Of a DNA stretch of 26,382 bases, positions 5,985-19,271 are shown in pieces. Both the position numbers and the translations under genes were made by a program. Positions within the stretch are counted from its first letter, which is position 1; every line of letters begins with the position of its first letter. The notes beneath the pieces are model-generated. The model was not told the DNA's origin, did not search any database, and saw nothing but the letters and a program-made list of their open reading frames with translations. Origin of the DNA: a virus. Location of the stretch: IMG/VR virus record IMGVR_UViG_3300005827_000060, positions 1 through 26,382 of that record; one strand, written 5' to 3'.

Positions 5985-6033
5985 CAAAAAAGACCGATGC
6001 CGCGCAAGCCCAAAGGCTTGCGCGGCATCGGTC
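5985..6033 (-). terminator. Terminator hairpin abutting the protease gene start (copy A)
   Basis: A perfect 19 bp stem (5992-6010 with 6015-6033) with a 4-base loop is followed on the minus strand by TTTTTTG. The protease ATG lies only about 10 bases after the stem, and no Shine-Dalgarno site is visible between them. It can end transcripts from the genes upstream, or act as a regulated attenuator for the protease operon. A second copy exists at 11421-11468. Confidence 0.75.
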
Positions 6034-6037
6034 GGAT

Positions 6038-6094
6038 GGTAGATGCCCTGCCCGACGGTTAGGCCGGGCGCGGTTTTCAGTTGCGCGTATTATA
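6038..6094 (-). promoter_or_regulatory. Conserved leader element and -10 box (copy A)
   Basis: A 35-base block (6038-6072) is identical to one at 11475-11509. On the minus strand it contains GCCCG-loop-CGGGC and then GGGCATC. GGCATC is complementary to GATGCC in the 5' arm of the terminator stem that follows, so it could form an anti-terminator. A TATAAT sequence at 6094-6089 would start the RNA just upstream, but no good -35 box is seen. This is the layout of a leader RNA control element. The ligand or protein that acts on it is unknown. Confidence 0.5.
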
Positions 6095-11468: not shown

Positions 11469-11474
11469 CTGATT

Positions 11475-11509
11475 GGTAGATGCCCTGCCCGACGGTTAGG
11501 CCGGGCGCG
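11475..11509 (-). promoter_or_regulatory. Conserved leader element (copy B)
   Basis: These 35 bases are identical to 6038-6072 and have the same relation to a terminator and a start codon. They contain a small GCCCG/CGGGC hairpin and the GGGCATC strand that can compete with the terminator. TTGACG on the minus strand at about 11541-11536 could be a -35 box, but the matching -10 is poor. No known riboswitch family was recognised. Confidence 0.5.
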
Positions 11510-12441: not shown

Positions 12442-12652
12442 GTGACTGATCCAGGCGCGTGACCCACCGGCAAGTCACAGTCTGAGCGCGGTCACATCGG
12501 CCCGTGACCGCACCGGCAGCGGGCGGCGATGATCTATCACGGCCTCGCCTTCCCCTGTGACCCACCGTCAGGTCACGCGCTGCACAGCGTCACGCCCGAA
12601 CGTGACCGCCCAGGAGTTGCTTATAGCCTGGTCAGTCACACCAGCCTGTGAC
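12442..12652. repeat. GTGAC/GTCAC array 1
   Basis: Eleven copies of GTGAC or GTCAC occur in 211 bases: 12442, 12459, 12474, 12491, 12504, 12557, 12572, 12589, 12602, 12635 and 12648. Chance would give about half a copy. The spacings 15-17-13 recur: the four sites from 12459 to 12504 repeat exactly 98 bases later from 12557 to 12602, while the bases between them vary. No plausible gene lies here. Related segments occur at 24864-25129 and, inverted, at 26155-26311. Confidence 0.85.
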
Positions 12653-12818
12653 GCTACCGGCATCAGCCAGCGGTACTCTGTTACACCACAATTAAATGAC
12701 CGCGCCGGGAGTGCTAGTTGTGCCCGGCGCGGATAAAACAAACAAAAAATTTTAAGTTTTTTGTGTCTTGGGGATGGGCCGCTATTTAATACGGCGCTGG
12801 AGTTATTCTATGCTGATG
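12653..12818. other. AT-rich spacer with inverted repeats inside the repeat block
   Basis: This segment separates two clusters of the pentamer array. A 10 bp perfect hairpin (12700-12709 with 12723-12732, 13-base loop) is followed by an AT-rich inverted repeat, ACAAAAAA and TTTTTTGT at 12742-12749 and 12757-12764. No gene is supported. An easily melted AT-rich stretch beside short iterated sites resembles the layout of iteron-type origins. Confidence 0.5.
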
Positions 12819-13158
12819 GTCACGCTTGTCAATGTGACGAACCGGCCCGCGCTTGGCGCTGCGCCGTTACAGCTCCAGGGTGTTGAGAGCGAGCACGGTC
12901 ACAGTGACGGCCTGCGTGCGTTGCTGCCGGACGCGGTCACACCCGGCGGGAACATCCCCAGCAGTGGAGATGCTGGCCACAGCCACGGGCGGCGCTGGGT
13001 ACCGGTGGGCAACGGCGCGGGCAGCGATGTTCCATGCCTATCGTGGGCATCCCCGCCCGCGCAGATGCAGGCCCGCATGGTGGCCACGCTGCCCGCAGTG
13101 ATGGGCGCGCACACCTGGCTACATCCACAAGGGTGGCGGGGCTTCAGCGCAGCGGCCG
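12819..13158. repeat. Second part of array 1 and gene-free sequence
   Basis: GTGAC/GTCAC occur at 12819, 12834, 12898, 12904, 12936. At 12898-12908 two form the palindrome GTCACAGTGAC, also present at 24864-24874. The stretch 12834-12957 is homologous to 25061-25145. From about 12960 to 13158 I see only GC-rich sequence without a credible gene. Long open frames across it have no protein-like character. Confidence 0.65.
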
Positions 13159-15403: not shown

Positions 15404-15676
15404 TTACAGTTCATGGCCCACCGCCTTCCGCCAATCCACCGTCGCGCCGGTCAGCGCCAATCCGTCCAGCGCCACTTCGGAGATCGTCACCGCCCGCCCA
15501 CCGGCGGCGGCATAAAAATCACTCCGGGGACGGCCCGGGTTGGCTGCGCACCACTGATCAAACGACTCGGTGCTATACAGCCATTGAATTTGCTCCAGCG
15601 CCCGCTGCATAGCCTCGTACTTGGCCACCTGCGAACGGGTCGCAAGGACGGGGGTGTAGGTGGTCTTAATGCCCAT
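15404..15676 (-). CDS. Small hypothetical protein
   Basis: This 90-residue protein starts at ATG 15676, overlapping the previous stop by 11 bases, with a GGAGG ribosome site inside the previous gene. It has a helical first half (RSQVAKYEAMQRALEQIQWL), a WCAANPGRPRSDFY segment and a beta-rich end. I recognise no family. The overlap points to translational coupling with the zinc-binding gene upstream. Confidence 0.5.
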   Translation of the reverse strand: MGIKTTYTPVLATRSQVAKYEAMQRALEQIQWLYSTESFDQWCAANPGRPRSDFYAAAGGRAVTISEVALDGLALTGATVDWRKAVGHEL

Positions 15677-16073
15677 TGCATACCTCCGCCTGCACTTGCT
15701 GAAACCACGCATTGAAACCATCAGCGATGGCACTGGCCTGCTGCCAATCCGAGGGCTGGGCCGTGAGCGGCGAAAGCGGCGGGTTGTGGAGCGCCAGCAC
15801 CTCGGCGGTGGTGACCAGCGCAAAGCCAGGGCACCGAGTCGCGTAATAGTCGGCGGTGGCCACCGGCGCACTGCGGGCCACCACCGCCGAGGCGTTGCCA
15901 CTGACCGGGCGCGAGCTTGCGCCATGTCCGCGGCCATTATTGGATTTTGACTTGGGGGGCTTGGCGCACGGCGCACACACCGCGCCTTTGCGCGCCACCG
16001 GGCGGCGGTGGCATTTGCGGCATTTGAAACCGGTGCCGCGCTGGGTGGTGGAGTTGCTGCGCTTAAGGATCAT
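15666..16073 (-). CDS. Zinc-finger-like early protein
   Basis: I choose ATG 16073 because AGGAGG lies 8 bases before it. The 135-residue protein has a CRKCHRRPVARKGAVCAPC zinc motif at residues about 18-36, then a basic Ser/Asn/Gly linker, and a helical second half. It is the first sizeable gene of the leftward early operon driven from the palindromic promoter at 16.2 kb. It could be a DNA-binding regulator, but no fold beyond the zinc ribbon is recognised. Confidence 0.6.
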   Translation of the reverse strand: MILKRSNSTTQRGTGFKCRKCHRRPVARKGAVCAPCAKPPKSKSNNGRGHGASSRPVSGNASAVVARSAPVATADYYATRCPGFALVTTAEVLALHNPPLSPLTAQPSDWQQASAIADGFNAWFQQVQAEVCNGH

Positions 16074-16091: not shown

Positions 16092-16121
16092 TTGTGGCAG
16101 GATGCCCAATTTTGGTACAAT
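16092..16121 (+). promoter_or_regulatory. Possible promoter of a small RNA
   Basis: TTGTGG (16092-16097) and TACAAT (16116-16121) are 18 bases apart and would start transcription near 16128. The boxes overlap the start region of the leftward zinc-finger gene. Evidence is the boxes and the well-formed terminator downstream only. Confidence 0.35.
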
Positions 16122-16127
16122 CTTGGC

Positions 16128-16201
16128 CAGCCCGCCACTAGATACGATAGTGGTTGGGTTAGCCCCCAGAGAGTGTTTCCGCACTTTCTGGGGGCGTTTT
16201 T
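16128..16201 (+). ncRNA. Candidate small RNA with terminator
   Basis: The predicted transcript has a small hairpin (CCACTA and TAGTGG, 16135-16153), then a strong terminator: a 14 bp stem with one G-T pair (16162-16175 with 16182-16195), a 6-base loop and GTTTTTG. No gene on this strand precedes the terminator closely, so a short RNA of about 75 bases is a reasonable reading. It would be antisense to the 5' region of the leftward operon, including the short leader frame. The alternative is a terminator for read-through from outside. Confidence 0.4.
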
Positions 16202-16209
16202 GTTTGCAT
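16159..16209 (-). CDS. Possible 16-residue leader peptide
   Basis: An ATG at 16209 lies four bases after a TATACT -10 box and opens a frame MQTKTPPESAETLSGG followed by TAA. It would be read from the very start of the leftward early transcript. The frame spans the whole hairpin that is a terminator on the other strand. It may be chance, but its position at a nearly leaderless promoter makes it worth listing. Confidence 0.3.
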   Translation of the reverse strand: MQTKTPPESAETLSGG

Positions 16210-16213
16210 AGAC

Positions 16214-16275
16214 AGTATAGCCCGTATTTTGGTTTTGTCAATACAGTTGACAAAACCAAAATACGGGTGTATCTT
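16214..16275. promoter_or_regulatory. Divergent promoters in a 21+21 bp perfect palindrome
   Basis: Arms 16221-16241 and 16247-16267 are perfect inverted repeats around 5 bases. Each arm supplies a -35 TTGACA. Rightward, TATCTT (16270-16275) is 17 bases from TTGACA, and ATG 16282 follows after 6 bases. Leftward, TATACT (16219-16214) is 16 bases from TTGACA, and an ATG follows after 4 bases. Both transcripts would be leaderless or nearly so. The palindrome is a likely operator for a regulator controlling both directions. Confidence 0.75.
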
Positions 16276-16281
16276 GTCTCT

Positions 16282-16533
16282 ATGCCGAATTATTTATCAA
16301 TCCAGCAGGCAACAAAGTATCTTGTTCGGATAACCACCAGAGCTGGTGTAGCTGCAGCAATAAAGCGCGGCGAGTTCCCGGGCGCGGTGAAGCTCAACCC
16401 GGAATTCGAGAAATCTCCCTGGCTTATACCTGTAGATGACATCAAGGCTCATCCGGCATATAACCATAGCCCGGTGGTGGAAACTGAAACGCCCGACACA
16501 TCCGCAGACGCGGACGAATCGGGCGTTTCATAA
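16282..16533 (+). CDS. AlpA/excisionase-like DNA-binding protein
   Basis: This 83-residue protein starts at ATG 16282 right at the predicted transcription start. Residues about 4-55 (SIQQATKYLVRITTRAGVAAA, then RGEFPGAVKLNPEFEKSPWLIPVDDI) have the form of AlpA or helix-turn-helix 17 type excisionase proteins: a helix-turn-helix followed by a strand and WLIP. The tail is acidic. It sits between the divergent promoter and the att site, ideal for an excisionase or a regulator of integrase. It may bind the 16.2 kb palindrome itself. Confidence 0.6.
   Translation: MPNYLSIQQATKYLVRITTRAGVAAAIKRGEFPGAVKLNPEFEKSPWLIPVDDIKAHPAYNHSPVVETETPDTSADADESGVS
16486..16529. terminator. Inverted repeat at the end of the excisionase-like gene
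   Basis: GAAACGCCCGA and TCGGGCGTTTC form an 11 bp perfect stem, with TCCGC/GCGGA nested inside, overlapping the last codons. Only a weak T-rich stretch follows, so it may be a terminator or a stabilising 3' hairpin. Confidence 0.45.
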
Positions 16534-16616
16534 TTCGGCTGTTCGCATTACCCCAACGCGCTAGCAATCGGCCAAGATAAACAGCGCGTCGGGCTGAACC
16601 TTAACAACCGAATTTA

Positions 16617-16673
16617 GGTGGCGAGGAATGGATTTGAACCATCAACCAAGGGCTTATGAGTCCCCTGCTCTGA
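16617..16673 (-). other. tRNA-Met 3' half: probable phage att core
   Basis: On the minus strand the sequence runs from AGAGCAGGGGACTCATAAG through a T-arm with loop TTCAAAT to an acceptor 3' strand CCTCGCC plus A. This is the 3' two-thirds of an elongator tRNA-Met (anticodon CAT at 16658-16656). The 5' acceptor strand GGCGAGG and the D-stem partner are missing upstream, so it is not a whole tRNA. The integrase gene ends about 50 bases away. Such fragments are phage copies of the 3' end of the target tRNA gene. An inverted repeat at 16684-16700 may be an integrase arm site. Confidence 0.75.
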
Positions 16674-16720: not shown

Positions 16721-17755
16721 TTATTCTACCTCCAAATCCGGCAAACTTACATGCCGCGAGTGTGCCCGCTTCAGCTCCTTATCTGCAAAGATGCCATAGT
16801 GCGCGTTAGTCACATCCACGCTACTGTGGCCCAGCAGTTGGGAAACGTGCGCGAGCGAGGCCCCATCCATCAGCATCCTGCGCGCCGCGCCATGCCGCCA
16901 ATTGTGCGGGTTCCACCCCGCAACAACCCCAGCGGCCTTAGCCAATCGCTTTAGCACCTGGTAAATGCCAGAGGTGCGCAGTCCCCCCTTCAACCCCACG
17001 AACACCGCATCCCCCCGGCCTTTTGGCCGCACCTTTAGCCAAGCCTCCATCGCCTCCACAGCGGCGGGAGCCAGGTACACCACCCTCTCCCTCTCGCCTT
17101 TCTCGCGCACAATCGCCCGGCCCCGCTTCAGCATCAAGTCGCCGACTCTCAGCCCAGCGGCCCCGGCACACCGGCACGCCGTTGACGCCAAAAAAAACAC
17201 CAGCGCCAAATCACGCGGCGACGCCCGCGCGGCCTGCATCATCCGCGCCAGGTCATCATCTGCAATCCCCTTACAGCCCACCTTCGGCAACTTCGGCAAC
17301 TCCAGCCGCAGTGCCGGGTTGTTGCTCAAAACCCCCTCCTCACAAAGCCACCTAAACAACCGCCGCGCTGCGCGGCAATAGCCGTGCAGCGTCCAGGGTG
17401 AAAGTCCCCCCTCGACCACCCCGCGCGTGGGGTGGGTAGTGTAACGCGCTTGTTTGTCTTGCAAGTCCGCTCGCCAGCGCCGCAAGGCACAAGTGTCCAC
17501 ACTTCCCACCTCCACATCTCCCAAAAACTCCACCAGCGAGTTGAGCCTGCGCTCATACCAGCGCCGGGTGGTCTCTGCCTTCGCCCCCATCAGCGAAAGC
17601 AAAAAACCAGCAACCGCACAACGGATTTTCACCTCGGCCTCCCCGTGGCCGCTCCACCGCTTTAAACGCCAAAGCGGCCACGACTCTAGTTTGAAAGAGT
17701 CGCGCCGCTTCTCTAGTGCGCGTTCCCCCGGTTCCGTTGCGGCGATGGCTTGCAC
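16721..17755 (-). CDS. int: Tyrosine recombinase / integrase
   Basis: This 344-residue protein starts at GTG 17755. The N-terminal core-binding domain covers about residues 45-140. The catalytic domain has Arg195 (ACRCAGAAGLRVGDL), a Lys near 219, His284-x-x-Arg287 (HNWRHGAARR), His310 (LLGHSSVDVT) and the nucleophile Tyr320 (NAHYGIFA). It would insert the phage DNA into a tRNA-Met gene whose 3' half lies just after its stop. It is read towards the att site and divergent from the rightward early genes. Confidence 0.9.
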   Translation of the reverse strand: MQAIAATEPGERALEKRRDSFKLESWPLWRLKRWSGHGEAEVKIRCAVAGFLLSLMGAKAETTRRWYERRLNSLVEFLGDVEVGSVDTCALRRWRADLQDKQARYTTHPTRGVVEGGLSPWTLHGYCRAARRLFRWLCEEGVLSNNPALRLELPKLPKVGCKGIADDDLARMMQAARASPRDLALVFFLASTACRCAGAAGLRVGDLMLKRGRAIVREKGERERVVYLAPAAVEAMEAWLKVRPKGRGDAVFVGLKGGLRTSGIYQVLKRLAKAAGVVAGWNPHNWRHGAARRMLMDGASLAHVSQLLGHSSVDVTNAHYGIFADKELKRAHSRHVSLPDLEVE

Positions 17756-18223: not shown

Positions 18224-18424
18224 ATGCCTGACCCAGCGCCCCCCCCCATTTTTTACTACACCACCCAAGCCACCGCACCCGAGGCGGCGGCAACGTTCTG
18301 GGAGCGGCACCACGCGCTCCCCGCTGTTTGCTACACCACCACCGAACACAGCCAGCGCGTGACGGTGGTTGGCCCCATCCCGCCCGCTGCACCACCTGCG
18401 CCCGAGGGGATGCCGTCGAGCTGA
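18224..18424 (+). CDS. Small hypothetical early protein
   Basis: This 66-residue protein starts at ATG 18224 and stops one base before the initiator gene ATG at 18426. It is Pro/Ala/Thr rich with two YYTT-like segments. A 9-C tract lies in codons 6-8. No family is recognised. Close packing supports it as a gene, but composition bias leaves doubt. Confidence 0.4.
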   Translation: MPDPAPPPIFYYTTQATAPEAAATFWERHHALPAVCYTTTEHSQRVTVVGPIPPAAPPAPEGMPSS

Positions 18425-18425
18425 C

Positions 18426-19271
18426 ATGACAACCACCAACCACGAAGCACTCATGCGCATTCGCGCAATTAAACCAGGCCCGCTTTACCTGCTGATCATC
18501 ATGCGCGTGATGGGCCTGATGCCGCCGCCCAACTTGGTGGCTGCTGACGTACAGCAGATAGCGGCGGCGGCTGGGTGGACAGACACCGCAACCAAAAGCC
18601 ACCTGGCGCAGCTCTTATCCATGCTCTATGTAGGGCGCTTGCACTACAGAGCGTGGTACATCACCGACGCGGGCATAAGTCTTGTAAACCCTGAAAGCAC
18701 AAAAAATGTGCTTTCAGCCCTAGTTAGTAGTAGTAGTGAATCTATTAATCAATTAAGTTTATTAACTACTACTACTAACTCTGAAAGCACAAAAAATGTG
18801 CTTTCAGAAAACTCGCAACAGCCCGCGCTCCTAGCCCCCGCGTTAGACCCCAACGTGGCCCGCTTGGCCGCGCTTCTGCATAACGAACATGGCACCGCCA
18901 TGCGCTACGCACTCCAAGCGTGCCAAAACGCCCTGACCGATGGCAGTCCACTACTGACCGAACTGTGCATTTTGTATTGGTCTGAATACCTGATTGAAAA
19001 CTCAAACGGGGTCCGCAACCGCGCGGCTTTGGTCTCGCACTCAGTAGGCCGTGGGGAATTCCCCGCTAACTGGTGGATTGAGAAATACAGGCCCCAGTTG
19101 GCCGATGCCGAACTTTACGAGGATGACTACGCAAAGCTCACAGTGCGCCAGAAGCGCATTGTGGATTTGGAATTCGAGCGTAAGGCGCTGGCCGTGGTGG
19201 TCGAAGAAAACGTCACTACGCCAACGGCACAACTTACTACACACACGCACCCATCTGATACCCATGCCTAA
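18426..19271 (+). CDS. Putative replication initiator (lambda O-like layout)
   Basis: I place the start at ATG 18426. The 281-residue protein has a probable winged helix at residues about 15-85 (DVQQIAAAAGWTDTATKSHL, ITDAG), a Ser/Thr linker at 88-130 with the octapeptide ESTKNVLS twice, and a helical C-terminal domain. The linker is encoded by AT-rich nested palindromes, as expected if an origin lies inside the gene, the plan of lambda O. It would bind the origin and recruit the host helicase. The role is inferred from layout. No family match is certain. Confidence 0.5.
   Translation: MTTTNHEALMRIRAIKPGPLYLLIIMRVMGLMPPPNLVAADVQQIAAAAGWTDTATKSHLAQLLSMLYVGRLHYRAWYITDAGISLVNPESTKNVLSALVSSSSESINQLSLLTTTTNSESTKNVLSENSQQPALLAPALDPNVARLAALLHNEHGTAMRYALQACQNALTDGSPLLTELCILYWSEYLIENSNGVRNRAALVSHSVGRGEFPANWWIEKYRPQLADAELYEDDYAKLTVRQKRIVDLEFERKALAVVVEENVTTPTAQLTTHTHPSDTHA
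18691..18807. repeat. Nested palindromes: candidate replication origin
   Basis: A 27-base palindromic repeat (CTGAAAGCAC, 7 bases, GTGCTTTCAG) occurs at 18691-18717 and again, identical, at 18781-18807, exactly 90 bases apart. Between them a 16 bp perfect inverted repeat, AGTTAGTAGTAGTAGT (18722-18737) and its complement (18765-18780), flanks an AT-rich 27-base centre. Base composition contrasts sharply with the GC-rich surroundings. It looks like an iteron origin embedded in the initiator gene. A transcriptional operator is the alternative. Confidence 0.65.

Follow-up and report, generated by a model that had tools for sequence, protein, structure and literature searches.

A perfect palindrome with divergent promoter motifs beside an apparently leaderless excisionase-like gene in a putative Anaerolineales phage

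The window analyzed here is a virus record of 26,382 bases, taken at its full length. Near its middle lies a palindrome, CCCGTATTTTGGTTTTGTCAA-TACAG-TTGACAAAACCAAAATACGGG, which spans positions 16221-16267 and measures 47 bp overall. Its arms, 16221-16241 and 16247-16267, are 21 nt each, 100% complementary and 5 nt apart, and the centre TACAG (16242-16246) lies between two -35 boxes. The right arm, read on the plus strand, holds TTGACA at 16247-16252 and most of the following spacer, and ends in TACGGG. The left arm, read on the minus strand, holds TTGACA at 16241-16236. On the plus strand, a 17-nt spacer separates the -35 from TATCTT (16270-16275), which is followed after a gap of 6 nt by an ATG at 16282; on the minus strand, the spacer is 16 nt, the -10 is TATACT (16219-16214), and a gap of 4 nt leads to an ATG at 16209. 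Judged by these motifs, the 78-bp segment is a predicted pair of back-to-back strong sigma-70-type promoters. The initial annotation had described a 47-base palindrome with a -35 in each arm, a -10 outside and an ATG 4-6 nt on, and this description is exact; the divergent promoters that it placed within one palindrome are likewise borne out, with an exact TTGACA in both arms and a -10 outside each.

The arms cannot be explained by chance, because a search with the 21-mer arm, allowing up to three mismatches, finds two sites in the record, both of them palindrome arms, and shuffled sequences give such a matching pair in 0 of 100 trials. No second copy of the palindrome occurs in the record, and an IMG/VR search with a 17-mer of the arm returned 41 matches, none of which has the mirror arm. 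Chance also fails to explain the pair of -10 boxes, since simulation given the arms puts the probability of an acceptable -10 on each side at P = 0.0023; for both -10s plus the ATGs it is 5e-5. The two predicted promoters rank first and second among promoter-like sites in the 13.5-19.6 kb interval and belong to the four strongest in the whole record, where just two further sites score at least 10/12, at 12832 and 12439, both on the minus strand. Symmetry persists beyond the arms (GGGC-TATACTGTCT--ATG versus GGGTGTATCTTGTCTCTATG; P = 0.007), although it falls to P = 0.07 when the -10s and ATGs are held fixed and is therefore weak once the promoter parts are discounted. The palindrome was rejected as a terminator, as a T run is absent 3' of it. 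Palindrome matches at loci L100 and L098 were also set aside; they stand in an ordinary promoter/terminator context without the divergent layout. A search for host operators similar to the palindrome centre gave matches at 3 mismatches only, which is the chance level.

The plus-strand ATG opens a gene for an 83-aa excisionase-like winged helix-turn-helix protein (16282-16533) that has no Shine-Dalgarno site. The protein matches PHROG 10045 HTH weakly (E 4e-4) and HTH_17 at an E value of 0.037, under the Pfam cut-off, and has no NCBIfam match. A tblastn search of phage records found no match to it, and neither did single-sequence searches of viral contigs with this protein, the integrase or the zinc-ribbon-like protein described below. 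The predicted structure, for which one of five models is confident, is a winged helix-turn-helix of the Xis/MerR type, with similarity to Pukovnik Xis 4j2n (Z 6.9, 31% identity across 52 residues), BldC 6ama (Z 7.0), lambda Xis (Z 5.2) and RdfS (Z 4.8). A profile search of solved structures also places Pukovnik Xis at the top (E 0.0012). Among 11 members of the protein family, TIGR01764 (excisionase) matches nine, HTH_17 ten and Phage_Cox two.

The attP core lies at 16613-16672 on the minus strand, where 60 bp are identical to the 3' part of the tRNA-Met(CAT) gene of the Anaerolineales MAG SJ338, so that the host of the phage is most likely an Anaerolineales bacterium. The excisionase-like gene ends 79 nt from this core, and a tyrosine integrase gene (16721-17755, minus strand; Phage_integrase E 6e-27, PHROG 1 integrase E 1e-42) converges on attP from the other side. 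The same position beside attachment site and integrase, as for an excisionase, is found in relatives. Fold, family and this position near attP and the integrase support the excision role that had been proposed for the right-hand gene, and the 83-aa protein probably acts in excision. Repeated k-mers around the att site, of the direct-repeat type bound by excisionases, are within chance expectation. An inverted pair, AACAGCCGAATT / AACAACCGAATT, lies beside the attP core at 16532-16543 and 16603-16614, which are the only two exact matches of AACARCCGAATT in the record; these may be integrase or excisionase sites. In SJ338, 44-60 bp of the tRNA-Met 3' end occur on five contigs (L044, L045, L047, L048 and L049) at five places; one copy is a complete tRNA gene, short inverted repeats follow several, and the copies look as if several elements use one site.

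A family profile built from the 83-aa protein and two relatives identified members in 18 of 400 Anaerolineales genomes, and viral contigs added 13 further members. In nine of the ten best genomic relatives the gene is followed closely by a convergent tRNA gene; in the remaining one it faces an integrase. In three genomes (G167, G375 and G027) the tRNA 3' end is duplicated approximately 11 kb away, beside an integrase. Two of these three elements carry a Zot-like ATPase, as judged by eye: those at L293 (G375) and L295 (G027) are tRNA-Lys-integrated elements of ~10.5-11 kb whose ATPase has the motif GRLGSGKT, and they are possibly filamentous phages of Anaerolineales. On contig C1 of G375, just outside the integrase end of the element, a 20-mer of the tRNA-Lys 3' end is repeated six times with an exact 80-bp period.

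In published work, leaderless genes are recognized by a TA-like signal that precedes the start codon by about 12 bp; this signal was present in 4 of 12 Chloroflexi genomes, at approximately 5% of genes (PMC3160421). As a criterion this reads TAnnnT some 10-12 bp ahead of the start and no Shine-Dalgarno site. In the window, TATCTT starts 12 bp before the plus-strand ATG, with no Shine-Dalgarno site between. The -10 ends 6 nt upstream, so the usual start point would be the A of the AUG at 16282. The arrangement TTGACA-17-TATCTT-6-ATG thus supports a right-hand gene that is leaderless, as predicted from its spacing. A strict test of this spacing (a -35 with at least 5/6 matches, a 16-18 nt spacer, TAnnnT, and 5-8 nt to the start) is passed by 16 of 24 family members from genomes and viral contigs against 4 of 4000 control ATGs drawn from the same loci, a family count somewhat inflated by the few members in which the promoter guided the choice of start. 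After removal of near-duplicates, 12 of 19 members pass; of ORFs with any start, 7 of 511 do. At a promoter score of at least 9/12 the figures are 20 of 24 members and 31 of 4000 controls. The last eight spacer bases of the window promoter, TACGGGTG, recur unchanged at the corresponding position of G300 and with one base altered in L315. From this recurrence and the family promoter counts, the right half of the palindrome looks like an inherited promoter of the excisionase gene family. A dyad centred on the -10, TTGCGTAnAATnCGCAA, is found upstream of the excisionase gene in L292, L316, L317 and L318 and may be a conserved operator.

The left side is built differently. TATACT starts 10 bp before the ATG at 16209, leaving a 4-nt gap that is shorter than usual, and this ATG opens an ORF of 16 codons, MQTKTPPESAETLSGG (16159-16209, minus strand). 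A gene for a 135-aa zinc-ribbon-like protein with a CxxC-CxxC N-terminus (15666-16073, minus strand) starts 136 nt further along the message, has an AGGAGG Shine-Dalgarno site before its ATG, and is likely the first real gene of that message. The protein has no family match, and its predicted structure is a poor model. Farther along, the leftward gene at 13688-14890 matches PHROG 10048, a family of unknown function. Because the ATG opens an ORF of 16 codons and the next likely gene is led by a Shine-Dalgarno site, the left message probably has no useful leaderless start, and the claim that both messages lack leaders has support on the right side only.

Opposite the leader of the minus message, the plus strand contains a predicted small-RNA promoter, GTGGCA-16-TACAAT (16094-16121), which has a TG before its -10 and scores 9/12. 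The predicted RNA (16126-16204) consists of two hairpins and a terminator and is antisense to that leader. The terminator is a strong intrinsic one (16162-16204) with no plus-strand gene upstream. The 79 nt of 16128-16206 fold with -46.2 kcal/mol (z -9.1), and none of 200 shuffles was as stable. The RNA resembles the SymR model (E 6e-5), although its score of 35.7 against a gathering score of 61 does not make it an Rfam member. With its own predicted promoter and terminator opposite the leader, it has the layout of a candidate cis-antisense RNA. A segment common to the small-RNA promoter and the arms, ATTTTGGT, was dropped for its low rank among arm-like matches.

Several other features of the record lie farther from the palindrome. 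Dispersed repeats rich in GTGAC, up to 132 nt long and 77-86% identical, occur in direct and inverted orientation at 12442-12910, 24897-25163 and 26196-26311; they are perhaps replication or partition sites, and their presence on both sides of attP shows that a single element covers both. The genes at 19510-21462 and 22806-23816 encode ParB-like and ParM-like partition proteins, alongside the integrase and attP of the same phage. The ORF at 18369-19271 contains a 31-nt palindromic segment (AACCCTGAAAGCACAAAAAATGTGCTTTCAG) twice, at 18687-18717 and 18777-18807, and another inverted repeat, of 20 nt, surrounds the two copies. Strong leftward terminators at 5989 and 11427 (minus strand) have the stem ACCGATGCC...GGCATCGGT in common, and beside them lies an identical 36-nt stretch at 6037-6072 and 11474-11509.

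A palindrome not conserved in relatives had been named in advance as evidence against the switch reading, and this outcome is seen in part: the long palindrome is absent from relatives, whereas the right-hand promoter is kept. Relatives of the excisionase have no long palindrome, their best inverted repeats reaching at most 12 nt; no comparable palindrome accompanies integrase relatives in 15 Anaerolineales genomes; and the TerL relatives (60 loci) resemble the window in their packaging genes and lack its control region. The left arm is a mirror image of the inherited -35 and spacer, a pattern that points to an inverted duplication, with the left half as a mirrored addition to an older promoter. 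Convergence under selection is an alternative origin of the left arm. In L320, at 2762-2934, a shorter mirrored -35 (TGTCAAGG/CCTTGACA) stands before the leaderless excisionase gene; it is lacking in the sister loci L318 and L319. The divergent gene of L320 encodes an adenine methyltransferase, is led by a Shine-Dalgarno site, and resembles the methyltransferase gene of the window itself (25176-25889). Taken together, the mirrors of L320 and of the window indicate that a leaderless excisionase promoter has gained a mirror partner at least twice.

Our preferred reading, to which we give a probability of roughly 0.6, is that the right half is the inherited leaderless promoter of the excisionase gene, that the left half is a mirrored copy firing into an early leftward operon, and that a symmetric protein would switch both. 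The rightward message would start at its own AUG and make the excisionase, a recombination directionality factor. On the left, the mirrored -35 and spacer would have acquired a -10 of their own and would fire away from attP. The leftward message would carry a structured leader overlapped by the convergent antisense RNA, which may restrain the leftward genes. The -35 boxes are just 5 bp apart, so polymerase would load in one direction at a time; two polymerases could presumably not sit together at the palindrome, and the directions would compete. A symmetric protein on the arms would shut or free both promoters at once and thereby join excision to leftward expression. We hold the promoter and excisionase parts of this model with considerable confidence, although transcription from both promoters is itself predicted, while a shared repressor acting on both is a tentative proposal. 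The polymerase competition and the origin by inverted duplication are, like the repressor, deductions from the layout. The excisionase fold family, including BldC and Xis, binds head-to-tail direct repeats. As Apl and its kin do so too, a protein of this fold is not a likely binder of the 47-bp dyad.

One rival explanation concerns the small RNA. The plus-strand hairpin at 16162-16204 could be a relic or insulator terminator of the excisionase module instead of the end of a small RNA, a reading that we consider somewhat less probable than its opposite. In G167 a strong terminator does stand right before the excisionase promoter, but there it follows co-directional genes, whereas in the window no plus-strand gene precedes it, and the 9/12 promoter with its TG and the second hairpin make a compact RNA with the z score of -9.1 given above. 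For the palindrome itself, the excisionase promoter may recently have been duplicated in inverted orientation, so that the mirror serves simply as a leftward promoter and has no operator role. The arms hold inherited promoter pieces, TTGACA and TACGGG, without similar sequence elsewhere; unrelated phages repeatedly have mirrored back-to-back -35 boxes in plain promoters; and L320 gained a mirrored -35 that L318 and L319 do not have. Against this account, the perfect identity over 21 nt, which includes spacer positions that are unconstrained in promoters, suggests youth or selection alike, and we regard the account as possible but rather doubtful.

An immunity switch of the lambda/P2 type is less probable still. 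The palindrome would then be bound by a CI-like repressor whose gene lies outside the record, and the 83-aa protein would be a Cox/Apl-like excisionase that also represses the opposite promoter. Apl of phage 186 binds att and also between pR and pL (PMC7498355), XisF4 and Cox combine excisionase and repressor roles (PMC7379572), and two of the 11 family members match Phage_Cox. Against this, no repressor gene is seen in the 26-kb record, the operator-like palindrome is the only one there, and direct repeats one turn apart that are common to the promoters and att are absent. The lack of a CI/Cro-like match among the scanned proteins of the record carries little weight, because the record may be incomplete: it spans 26 kb, its virus classification comes without an estimate of completeness, and its TerL relatives are often on contigs of 40-56 kb. 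That the palindrome is a site of telomere resolution or recombination or a transposon end, and not a promoter pair, is very improbable. A long perfect dyad near a tyrosine recombinase would fit such a site; however, the enzyme here is a phage integrase, whose tRNA attP lies 350 bp from the palindrome, and not a protelomerase, for which reason a telomere-resolution site as in N15-like phages was rejected, and there is no further copy of the arm and a near-consensus promoter on both sides.

That most family members, in phages as well as in small tRNA-integrated elements of a single bacterial order, have a start codon 6-7 nt past the -10 points to a leaderless start that is retained deliberately for excision control, and such a start might, for example, let excision control respond to the state of the ribosome. 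The leaderless promoter rule offers an inexpensive means of locating excisionases and att ends in genomes of Chloroflexota. The mirrored copy, together with the shorter L320 case, shows a route from a one-way promoter to a two-way switch. The widest generalization would be that att-proximal excisionases of Anaerolineales phages and small integrated elements are, as a rule, expressed from promoters close to consensus whose +1 falls on the start codon, and that here this promoter has been duplicated in inverted form into a 47-bp dyad. On such a dyad, excision and expression to the left would exclude each other, one protein could repress both, and an antisense RNA would trim the leftward output. 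In this complete form the proposal is speculative, and we rate it well below the preferred reading.

Among phage messages without a leader, the repressors are the best-known cases, namely lambda cI and PY54 cI, and PY54 cro is another; excisionases with a second role as regulators have also been described. In the immB region of PY54, the divergent cI and cro messages both begin at their AUG and flank one palindromic operator (PMC4488713), and the window likewise has divergent promoters around one palindrome. PY54 differs in having the cI and cro genes and an operator of 16-18 bp, whereas the window has an excisionase homologue, a 47-bp palindrome holding both -35 boxes, and one side that is convincingly leaderless. 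With 186 Apl, P2 Cox and Pf4 XisF4 the window shares an excisionase-fold protein and a divergent early control region near att; Apl of phage 186 binds direct repeats (PMC7498355), and these systems have direct-repeat sites and a divergent repressor gene, where the window has a divergent zinc-ribbon-like gene and no repressor is seen. The bidirectional promoters of E. coli are also symmetric DNA on which polymerase can load either way, one binding excluding the other (PMC12825309), but in the window the promoters stand back to back, the predicted starts are ~75 bp apart and the dyad is long and perfect. Mirrored TTTTGTCAA-N-TTGACAAAA sites were read at 83 places in viral contigs, and in 23 of them, the window among these, a -10 lies on both sides; the other back-to-back TTGACA promoters of this set have arms of 9-14 nt, and their spacers are not mirrored. 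Several of them drive a small-terminase-like gene (MKKELTTKQQSFLDNLV) whose ATG lies 5-10 nt past one -10, and this arrangement of back-to-back consensus promoters is seen at L164, L169, L172, L175, L179 and L221-L224. The small RNA is comparable to SymR and to plasmid counter-transcribed RNAs as a compact two-hairpin RNA with a terminator, antisense to a leader, though it stays below the Rfam gathering score and its target is unrelated. In one published source the terms leaderless and excisionase are applied to different genes (PMC11373665). What appears to be new in the present locus and its relatives is that att-proximal excisionase genes in Anaerolineales elements follow a leaderless rule across the family, joined here to a long mirrored promoter.
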